From NCBI GenBank assembly GCA_017453665.1, contig JAFTEM010000027.1, forward strand, positions 1 through 5,179: DNA of 5,179 nt, written 5' to 3'. Made by a program: the position numbers and the translations under genes. This DNA is from a bacterium (lineage in GTDB: Bacteria > Patescibacteria > JAEDAM01 > Absconditabacterales > Absconditicoccaceae). This document shows positions 1,281-3,407 of this stretch, piece after piece (the first letter of the stretch is position 1; every line of letters starts with the position of its first letter). The notes under the pieces were generated by a model. The model was given only the letters and a program-made list of their open reading frames with translations. It made no database searches and was not told the DNA's origin.

Positions 1281-1305
1281 GAAGGTGCTAAATATTAGCA
1301 CCTTC
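1281..1305. terminator. Perfect 11-bp stem hairpin between convergent genes
   Basis: GAAGGTGCTAA pairs perfectly with TTAGCACCTTC across the 3-nt loop ATA. It lies 17 bp after the fic stop and covers the last codons and TAG stop of the convergent minus-strand gene. A shared terminator is the natural reading. However, the T-rich run (1265-1276) lies upstream of the hairpin on the plus strand, and neither direction has a downstream U-tract, so it is not a canonical intrinsic terminator. It may instead block 3' exonucleases. Confidence 0.45.
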
Positions 1306-1599
1306 GGGAATTCCTTCTGGGAGATTGAGAAAGATTCTTAGTTTGATGCTTGTTACTTGAAGTGCACCAGCTTCAGAGACTTGTATTGAGAAATATTCTT
1401 CCCAATCTTTTGATGACTTTTCTCTTATGACTTCATATCTTCTGTTAATAAAGATAGTGAAATCTCCTCCTTGAACGTAGAGGTAGCCATTAGGACAATC
1501 AGTCCCTGGCCATTGTGCTGGAGTAAGTTTGAGTGTAAGATATTTTTCTTCATCATCTACTTTACCCCAAAATCTGAATAAGAATTCTTTTTGTTTCAT
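1288..1599 (-). CDS. Hypothetical protein, 103 aa, without TGA codons
   Basis: The frame runs from ATG at 1599 to TAG at 1288-1290 and encodes a soluble, aromatic-rich acidic/basic protein with no signal peptide or membrane segment. I do not recognise the family. The alternating hydrophobic pattern in the middle (for example YLYVQGGDFTIFINRRYEVI, about residues 40-59) suggests beta strands. A good promoter lies 38 bp upstream, which supports the start and makes this a real gene rather than an antisense frame. All eight glycines use GGN codons, whereas about two thirds of glycines in the neighbouring genes are TGA. A hand count gives about 37% GC over 1321-1560, higher than the parts of fic I counted. 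Both fit recent acquisition from a standard-code donor, but eight codons are few. Confidence 0.7.
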   Translation of the reverse strand: MKQKEFLFRFWGKVDDEEKYLTLKLTPAQWPGTDCPNGYLYVQGGDFTIFINRRYEVIREKSSKDWEEYFSIQVSEAGALQVTSIKLRIFLNLPEGIPEGANI

Positions 1600-2066: not shown

Positions 2067-2099
2067 TTATTTATTCTAGAGATTTGTTAAAAATTGTAA

Positions 2100-2104
2100 T
2101 GGCT
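2100..2104. repeat. Left copy of probable 5-bp target duplication
   Basis: TGGCT directly precedes the left inverted repeat and recurs as TGGCT at 3380-3384 directly after the right one. A 5-bp match at matching distances from both ends is the best target-site duplication available. Confidence 0.55.
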
Positions 2105-2148
2105 AAATAGAAATGCGACAAAGAAAGCAAAAATAGAAATGCGACAAA
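2105..2148. repeat. Left IS end with two direct copies of the transposase-site motif
   Basis: AAATAGAAATGCGACAAA occurs at 2105-2122 and again at 2131-2148, a 26-bp period. The inner copy with its preceding CAAA is identical to the inner copy at the right end (18 matching bases in inverted orientation). Two sites per end suggest two transposase contacts. Confidence 0.85.
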
Positions 2149-2172
2149 ATGTTTACAAAAGCTTAACATTTT
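2146..2172 (-). terminator. Possible weak terminator after the transposase gene
   Basis: AAAATGTT (2146-2153) and AACATTTT (2165-2172) form an 8-bp AT-rich stem with an 11-nt loop, about 20 bp past the transposase stop. On the minus strand the 3' arm ends in TTTT, but no longer U-tract follows. The arm touches the inner end repeat. Confidence 0.35.
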
Positions 2173-2191
2173 CGAGACAAGTATTACCATC

Positions 2192-3301
2192 TTATAACCT
2201 TATATCTCACTTGATTGTTTCTTTAACTATAATTTTTCTACTACTTAATATCAAGTTCTTCTCTAATTGAAACTCCTTTCAGTAGTATGTTAAAGTTCAA
2301 TCTCTTCTCCATATTCTTGTTTCTTCTTTTGCAAAGAACCAATAGAAATTATCTTTTTCGTTCTTTGTTATTTTTACATGGGCATTTCATTCACACTTTG
2401 GAGGTACTCAAAACTTTGTATTATGCCATGGAATATAAACTTCTTCAAGAAACTTATTTCATTCCTCAATTGTTTTTATTCAGGCCAATCTCATCTTCTT
2501 AATTAATCTATCTTGTAGAGTTCTATTTCCTCTTTCAACTCTTCACTTTCATTCTGGATGATTTGCATATATCACTTCTATTCATAGTTTACTCATTCAT
2601 ACCTGAAATCTTGTTCTATATTCTTTGTTTCGGAGGTCCGAAGGGTAATTAACTTTATAAGTAGCATGCTTATCTAGATATATTGCACTTGGTTTTCAAA
2701 ACTTATCAAAATATGTTTTCCAAAAACTTATTACATCTTCTAAACGTTCTCGTTCAGAAAATTTAGCATATATTTTACTCGTTGCATCATCTATGGCAAC
2801 TAATAAACATCGTTTCTCTCAATTCTCTAACCAATCATGATAGCTTCAATCAAATTGGATAAGATCTCAATAACTAGGTCTTCTTTCTCTTTTTTGATGT
2901 TTAATTTTTTTCCTTGATTCATGGGCTATCCAAATTCATTCTTTAATCATTATTTGTCTTAATGTTTTTTTGCAAATATCAATTGAGAATTCCTCATCAA
3001 GATAATCCTTAAGTGCTGTAGGTCAAAAGTCTCTTAATTTATCATTTTTTCTGATGATTGTTTTAATATCAGCATATTTTGTGTTGTCTCATTGATGATT
3101 GGAAGGTTTTCACTTTAGACCATGTAATAATCATGGCGGTCATTTGTGTTTATAGCGATCAACCATTCTATAGATGGTAGATCTATCACGGTTAAATAGT
3201 GAAATCATTTCATCTATACTAATTTTCTTATTAATAAACTTTTCAATAATGCGAGTTTTCTGCGACATTTGTTCTAAATCATAATCATTATAAATAACCA
3301 T
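2192..3301 (-). CDS. DDE transposase of the ISNCY/IS1202 type, TGA-recoded
   Basis: The frame from ATG at 3301 to TAA at 2192 gives 369 residues with TGA as Gly. Residues of about 16-62 form a helix-turn-helix (MISLFNRDRSTIYRMVDRY) followed by GLLHGLKGKPSN, typical of these transposases. The integrase-like core starts at GDLIQFDGSYHDWLENGE (145-162). The catalytic triad is Asp151, Asp210 (in IYLDKHATYKVN) and Glu256 (in PEGKGRVERGNRTLQDRL). The family-typical segments RLAGIKTIEEGNKFLEE and FGVPP follow. No frameshift or internal TAA/TAG is present, so it appears functional. Twenty-one of 23 glycines are TGA, including Gly152 beside the catalytic Asp. In a standard-code cell it would stop within about 54 codons. 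The start is preferred because a promoter and leader hairpin lie directly upstream. Confidence 0.95.
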
Positions 3302-3307
3302 TTTTGT

Positions 3308-3336
3308 ATAGATAAAGAATAAAATTCTTTATCTAT
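3308..3336 (-). promoter_or_regulatory. Hairpin in the transposase leader, 13-bp stem
   Basis: ATAGATAAAGAAT (3308-3320) and ATTCTTTATCTAT (3324-3336) are perfectly complementary across a 3-nt AAA loop. The hairpin fills the space between the -10 box and the ATG, ending 7 bp before the start codon. A transcript entering from outside the IS would carry the whole stem. One started at the IS promoter (near 3328) would lack most of the 5' arm. This is the arrangement expected of a device that prevents transposase translation from read-through RNA, an inference from how some other IS work. Confidence 0.75.
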
Positions 3337-3363
3337 TATAGTCGCATTTCTATTTTTGTCCTA
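3335..3363 (-). promoter_or_regulatory. Transposase promoter embedded in the IS right end
   Basis: A perfect TATAAT -10 on the minus strand (plus 3335-3340) directly abuts the inner end repeat. The -35 region at 16-17 bp distance would read AGGACA or TAGGAC and lies between the two copies of the end motif. It is weak, as is common for transposase promoters, and transposase bound to the end could repress it. Confidence 0.5.
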
Positions 3364-3379
3364 CTGTCGCATTTTAAAT
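3341..3379. repeat. Right IS end with two copies of the transposase-site motif
   Basis: GTCGCATTT occurs at 3341-3349 and 3366-3374, a 25-bp period, in opposite orientation to the pair at the left end (26-bp period). The inner copy extends to GTCGCATTTCTATTTTTG, an exact inverted match to the left inner copy. The outer copy leads into the probable terminus at 3379 or 3380. Confidence 0.85.
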
Positions 3380-3384
3380 TGGCT
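3380..3384. repeat. Right copy of probable 5-bp target duplication
   Basis: TGGCT follows the right IS end and matches 2100-2104. Removing the IS and one copy would rejoin intergenic sequence without a reading frame, so no gene was cut. Confidence 0.55.
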
Positions 3385-3407
3385 GTAACAGAACTTATAT
3401 GAAAAGC

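Follow-up and report, generated by a model that had tools for sequence, protein, structure and literature searches.

A stretch of bacterial DNA of 5,179 nucleotides, which we will call the window, contains a transposase gene whose glycines are nearly all encoded by TGA, where a ribosome using the standard code would stop. How did a mobile element come to be written in this way, and is it confined to hosts that share its code?

The element and its transposase

The frame at 2192-3301 stays open for 369 codons provided that TGA is read through (Table 1). Under the standard code the frame splits and the longest piece has 53 amino acids, so the sequence-only reading was right that a standard-code cell could not express this transposase. 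The protein matches NCBIfam family ISNCY_2 (NF033594; E = 2e-95, 320 bits with a cut-off of 250). D151, D210, E256, and Q263 are invariant in 29 aligned rows, and a glutamine seven residues after the catalytic glutamate is given as a mark of the IS1202 family in the available part of its description (PMC10132070). A sequence search of solved structures with the transposase gave no match. An AlphaFold2 model (mean pLDDT 82, pTM 0.70) predicts a helical N terminus followed by a mixed core and an end rich in strands. Foldseek's top matches to this model were IstA of IS21 and TnsB, with TM-scores that are low by query length (0.36 and 0.44).

Table 1. Features of the element in the window (positions are those of the whole stretch)
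Feature	Position	Strand	Basis
Insertion sequence, 1296 bp	2095..3390	-	TGT...ACA ends, placed in register with family-member ends
Terminal repeat upstream of transposase	3365..3390	-	terminal-repeat pairing
Terminal repeat downstream of transposase	2095..2120	+	terminal-repeat pairing
Inner second copy of repeat core, upstream end	3341..3358	-	18/18 complementary to 2128-2145
Inner second copy of repeat core, downstream end	2128..2145	+	2105-2122 directly repeated at 2131-2148
Transposase gene, 369 codons, 21 TGA as Gly	2192..3301	-	ORF, ISNCY_2 match, codon counts
First catalytic Asp, residue 151	2849..2851	-	invariant column; motif-assigned
Second catalytic Asp, residue 210	2672..2674	-	invariant column; motif-assigned
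Catalytic Glu, residue 256, with Gln 263 seven residues on	2534..2536	-	invariant columns
CGA codon, residue 164, perhaps Trp	2810..2812	-	R 20, K 14, W 8, Y 5 (63 short-tail rows); ambiguous
CGA codon, residue 184, perhaps Trp	2750..2752	-	W 35, N 9, G 9, S 9; ambiguous (W in this column may be TGA-coded Gly)
CGA codon, residue 224, perhaps Trp	2630..2632	-	F 48, W 6, R 4
Early TAA stop of transposase	2192..2194	-	59 recoded short-tail relatives extend 12-27 residues further

The ends were sought with a script that lists inverted repeat pairs starting with TG, in the window and in 57 other loci. The element's terminal repeats are 26 bp long and identical at 19 of 26 positions. An 18-bp stretch starting at 2105 recurs directly at 2131, and inverted counterparts lie on the opposite side of the element. 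The available family description gives TGT/ACA ends, imperfect repeats of 24-26 bp, and a second inner copy (PMC10132070). The window's element resembles that description in its DDE residues plus glutamine, its TGT/ACA ends, its repeats of about 26 bp, its inner copy, and its length. Given the ISNCY_2 match, the ends, and the inner repeats, the element is an insertion sequence of the IS1202 family (ISNCY), as "insertion sequence" had implied. It had been placed at 2105-3379. An element does lie there, but the family anatomy puts its ends slightly wider, at 2095-3390.

The element also departs from the family. Its end core is ATGCGACA, whereas the upstream end has ATGTC in 39 of the 57 loci (a count from the listing, in which a few repeat pairs are unlike family ends). 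It uses TGA as glycine and probably CGA as tryptophan, and its transposase is shorter: it has 369 amino acids and no C-terminal tail, versus a published family range of 394-507 amino acids with a C-terminal domain. ISTde1, an IS1202-family element from Treponema, which uses the standard code, also has no tail, so we do not take the missing tail to exclude membership. The likeness to ISTde1 rests on the published description, which in its available part gives a short transposase of 394 amino acids without a C-terminal domain (PMC10132070).

Directly ahead of the transposase start lies a perfect 13-bp inverted repeat (3308-3336), which could restrict read-through expression. A promoter-like site overlapping the element end (3362-3335) is no stronger than in shuffled sequences.

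TGA as glycine in the element, its relatives, and its neighbours

Public protein sets commonly translate such genes with table 4, so that a glycine encoded by TGA shows as tryptophan (W). For instance, the database protein P0001, 94% identical, is the window's protein bearing W at its TGA codons. We counted W at the window's glycine columns in 398 aligned rows (the window, 278 proteins, and 119 locus translations): 278 rows have none, one has a single W, and 119 have at least four. These 119 recoded rows include the window itself (P0001), which is left out of the counts of relatives, and 118 recoded relatives remain. The row with one W (L063) is left out of both groups. Nearly all of the recoded rows are protein only, with DNA and host seen for few.

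Three protein searches gave 7720, 7445, and 5876 matches, of which the best 120 each were listed. The query of search 1 had the correct glycines, which favours standard-code rows, and the first standard-code row stood at rank 40 among the matches listed. Searches 2 and 3 were queried with W-bearing rows, which favours recoded matches. The best of 274 standard-code rows has 45% identity to the window with W and G omitted, and 52 of the 118 recoded relatives come closer than that. TGA shares in the recoded relatives run from 0.32 to 1.00 (median 0.71), with 13 of the 118 equal to or above the window.

The columns themselves identify the meaning of TGA. The claimed count of TGA among the transposase glycines, 21 of 23, was correct (the other two are GGA and GGT). 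The TGA codons at residues 145, 152, and 253 align to glycine in 100% of the 274 standard-code rows, those at residues 202 and 54 in 97% and 91%. In the 15 columns where 40% or more of standard-code rows have glycine, the window's 12 glycines are all TGA. Some TGA codons lie outside conserved glycine columns (the glycine share is 2% at residue 251 and 0% at residue 335). Residue 321 is a true tryptophan column and was excluded from later counts.

Could the frame be open by chance, or could TGA encode tryptophan as in Mycoplasma? The insertion sequences of Mycoplasma, with TGA as tryptophan, also have transposases that the standard code cannot read; they differ in the meaning of the codon and in their IS families. 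A chance frame is ruled out by the family match and by TGA in conserved glycine columns, and TGA as tryptophan is ruled out because the W of table-4 readings sits on glycine columns. We found no support for either kind of artefact, and we give that explanation practically no chance.

Other genes in the window are recoded as well. TGA encodes 12 of 15 glycines in a protein that has a Fic domain and a winged-helix end (262-1263, + strand), 16 of 24 in an MTase gene, 3 of 5 in a HicB-like antitoxin (1776-2024, - strand), and 4 of 14 in ORF4661. The MTase count marks it as a gene of a TGA=Gly host, and no tRNA genes were found in the window. Judging from the code, the host group is probably Absconditabacteria. 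Within one order of 49 genomes, 45 have the MTase gene, each time with in-frame TGA. Its closest relatives are in genomes G901 (81%) and G1084 (78%), and the sequence read from these two has GC contents of 0.296 and 0.291. No match in the kin stretches was found for the part of the window that holds the Fic and HicB-like genes, and this part looks like a variable island adjoining the conserved MTase gene. We also noticed a tandem repeat at 12-151 (12 bp, GTAAATGACAGA, 11.7 copies, 98% matches), which in one open frame encodes the repeat VNDR.

Two frames without TGA stand among recoded genes. ORF 1288-1599 (- strand, 103 amino acids) has 0 TGA among 8 glycines, is flanked by recoded genes, and has no match in phage records or in Pfam; perhaps it is a recent arrival. 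In G1084, a frame of about 200 amino acids (L268:13641-14243) has 0 TGA among 19 glycines, most of its neighbours are TGA-rich, and it is a candidate recent import.

The transposase's TGA share had been called higher than that of any host gene here. It is indeed the highest of the six ORFs in the window, and it exceeds the five others pooled (p = 0.0009), but the difference from Fic alone (Fisher p = 0.36) or the MTase alone (p = 0.07) is not significant. Its share of 0.91 is also above that of every one of 26 genes in two close relatives of the host. Does this reflect adaptation? Fourfold sites of two kin set the neutral expectation at 0.84, which a count of at least 21 in 23 fits (p = 0.26); when the transposase's own sites are used instead, the expectation is 0.69 (p = 0.012). 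Host genes of the kin average 0.57 (415/728), under the expectation of 0.84. Since 21 of 23 fits mutation under the composition of the nearest hosts, it is by itself neither a clock nor a sign of selection. So the element has been recoded, as proposed, but the idea that it has been there "long enough to recode" is weakened as a measure of adaptation.

Relatives with more AT-rich residues tend to have a higher TGA share (rho = 0.65, n = 58), a trend that is unproven once rows are paired by kinship (median p = 0.22). Over residues 54-365 of the family, the TGA share also differs strongly among conserved glycine columns: it is 51/57 at residue 54 and lowest at residues 152 and 202 (23/58). In row-wise permutation, uncorrected for kinship, these differences are larger than chance (observed 12.9, versus a mean of 1.7 and a maximum of 7.8 in 3000 permutations). 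Residue 152 adjoins the catalytic aspartate, and perhaps the accuracy of UGA reading in the core matters.

A probable second reassignment

CGA and CGG are reported to encode tryptophan in Absconditabacteria, in the available part of that report (PMC8629427). In the alignment, residue 157 is tryptophan in 274 of 274 standard-code rows and arginine in 15 of the 118 recoded rows, and residue 124 is arginine in 39 recoded versus 3 standard-code rows. The fewest changes on a tree of 190 rows are 5 for residue 157 and 18 for residue 124. A third conserved tryptophan column, in the long tail, has arginine in 0 recoded and 28 standard-code rows, with most recoded rows gapped there. The element in genome G982 has CGA at tryptophan positions 124, 157, and 194 (the aligner gave residue 156 for the second, which we placed at 157 by the invariant motif S-Y-H-x-W). 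The element in genome G943 has CGA and CGG codons outside the tryptophan columns.

Host genes point the same way. In 11 MTase sequences, 7 of the 9 columns with CGA or CGG (18 of 20 codons) are tryptophan in most of the others, and the remaining two are mostly phenylalanine or tyrosine; the window's own MTase gene has no CGA or CGG codons. Between G901 and G1084, 10 column pairs contain CGA or CGG: in 5 of them the other genome has TGG, in 3 it too has CGA or CGG, in 2 it has ATA or TTA, and in none does it have an unambiguous arginine codon. For comparison, TGG faces 0 of 113 AGA/AGG pairs. The tryptophan columns in the relatives and nearest hosts agree with the reported reassignment, so the relatives and nearest hosts probably also use CGA/CGG as tryptophan, beyond table 25, and table 25 probably misreads these codons in the elements.

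For the window itself, the columns of its three CGA codons have a mean aromatic share of 0.56, versus 0.03 for its 25 other arginine codons (p = 0.0012), and of the three columns residue 224 alone is plainly aromatic. This is suggestive only of tryptophan at the window's own CGA codons. The element had been assigned to "one genetic-code island", and TGA as glycine agrees with this; code 25 alone does not describe the island, with CGA/CGG probably tryptophan in relatives and nearest hosts.

Confinement, history, and the state of this copy

Are all near relatives recoded? In the trees, W and G were masked, which keeps the code from driving the topology. The split between recoded and standard-code rows has support of 100 (88 rows), 79 (175 rows), and 95 (190 rows, thinned from 390 by dropping rows at least 72% alike and those under 320 amino acids, except P0031 and P0039). 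A rooted tree has 82 rows: 36 recoded and 33 standard-code rows (thinned to these 69) and 13 IS481-like rows as the outgroup. The 36 recoded rows form one clade that is free of standard-code rows; its support is 100/99, and all 200 bootstrap trees recover it. This clade is nested among standard-code elements, the nearest being P0117 and elements of Moraniibacteriota and Parcubacteria, and the fewest changes of code label on the tree is 1. So the check on whether near relatives are TGA-rich came out as a single recoded group, and the proposal that the element is confined to recoded hosts is well supported: we detect one entry and no exit. Elements newly arrived without TGA would be scored as standard-code, so there may have been further entries.

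Three proteins (P0031, P0032, and P0039) have no W, yet lie inside the recoded clade. P0032 is named Gracilibacteria, and from their starts and stops P0031 and P0039 look like standard-table pieces between TGA codons.

Genomes gave fewer members. A search of the class matched 8 of 288 genomes and found two recoded members with DNA, in G982 and G943 (13 TGA with 4 GGN, and 14 TGA with 6 GGN). Both genomes belong to the same order as above, and the two elements are accompanied by recoded host genes. A scan of genome contigs had a top identity of 43% among the best 80 of 577 relatives, and a viral scan kept the best 80 of 84. Among the loci then gathered, L176 and L217, both the same place, were the only ones with two or more TGA within the match. 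Matches turned up in 19 of 379, 16 of 383, and 4 of 148 genomes searched, with single stops only, except in genome G307; PilB searches for recoded genomes (286, 40, and 20 genomes) found a TGA-rich PilB in G307 only. We think that back-translated search patterns are blind to TGA as glycine. The place shared by L176 and L217, contig C3 of G307, uses TGA as glycine and carries a TGA-rich DDE transposase of its own (10-11 TGA) as well as a PilB that has 6 TGA, within a standard-code genome bin; this contig is most likely contamination. Twenty-one phage records matched, all under 60% identity.

Our preferred reading, with a probability of about 0.84, is that an IS1202-family lineage entered TGA=Gly bacteria once and then diversified inside recoded hosts. 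A DDE transposase of the ordinary type would act on the TGT...ACA ends, moving the element now or formerly. The lineage would have crossed from standard-code candidate-phyla bacteria into TGA=Gly bacteria, a direction and a single entry that we infer from the tree. At entry its glycines would still have been GGN, legible in both codes. Within recoded hosts, GGN to TGA changes would be synonymous and favoured by AT-rich mutation, a presumed ratchet. Each such change bars a return, since translation under the standard code ends at TGA. The lineage would then have split into long-tail groups and a short-tail clade containing the window, and many members would have adopted CGA/CGG as tryptophan in addition.

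The tails vary in length: beyond the window's end, 59 recoded rows extend 12-27 residues and 20 extend 61-87, versus 30-73 in the 93 standard-code rows of the same set. The window's transposase groups with the short ones, and a larger set has 63 recoded rows under 400 amino acids. The deep separation of long-tail and short-tail groups would also be expected if elements had entered several times, each being recoded apart under the same mutation pressure. The support of 79 in the 175-row tree and the invisibility of recent arrivals fit that account too. But the recoded rows form one clade in the 88-, 190-, and 82-row trees with W and G masked, and the rooted tree needs a single label change. On present sampling we reject several entries as improbable, the value of 79 being the weak point.

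A single clade without exit would also result if the element had been present in the ancestor of the recoded bacteria, had been inherited and recoded there, and had later disappeared from most lines, with scant horizontal movement. The transposases of the window and G943 are 42% identical and their MTase counterparts 38%, so the element has diverged about as much as a host gene. Against this, the element is patchy: it was found in just 2 of the 49 genomes of the order, and not in G901 or G1084, the closest kin of the window's host. The patchiness counts for less because assemblies often break at insertion sequences, and both copies, in G982 and G943, are at contig ends. We hold this vertical history to be a serious contender, with clearly less than an even chance. 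So of the proposal that the element is a marker for horizontal transfer confined to one code, confinement stood, and movement between hosts did not gain support.

A separate question is whether this copy still moves. The lineage could be real and this copy a dead relic, which we consider somewhat less likely than not. Its TAA precedes the end reached by the 59 short-tail relatives. No target duplication was found flanking the element; for the family, the available description gives duplications of 3-5 bp or more than 15 bp, and none in some members (PMC10132070). Among the 57 loci, exact duplications are 14-17 bp in 14, 5-6 bp in 8, and 3 bp in one, but 34 likewise have none. The frame is otherwise open, the catalytic residues, both ends, and the inner repeats are retained, and the window's protein cluster has 2 member sequences on 4 contigs. 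A search of kin genomes for an empty insertion site was unsuccessful, since nothing in them matched the part of the window left of the MTase gene. So this copy may be immobile, and "lone decayed copy", named beforehand as a ground for rejection, describes the early stop and the missing duplication but not the rest.

Other mobile DNA shares the host's code. Recoded phages and prophages of Gracilibacteria and Absconditabacteria are likewise written with TGA as glycine, and standard-code phages are also predicted for these hosts, in the available part of that work (PMC10746230). The predicted standard-code phages suggest that the code is no barrier to entry. By titles and abstract openings, we found no paper on insertion sequences in TGA=Gly hosts.

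It is an even bet whether the transposon lineage is double-locked, with one entry, two reassignments following, divergence to about 40% identity, and no exit. If so, the code would work on mobile DNA as a one-way valve, and elements of this kind would log which hosts shared which code. The long-standing notion that a changed genetic code blocks gene flow becomes countable, here as 118 recoded relatives, one clade in the rooted tree, and no detected exit. And because W at conserved glycines reveals genes translated with the wrong table, public protein sets offer a way to make such counts.
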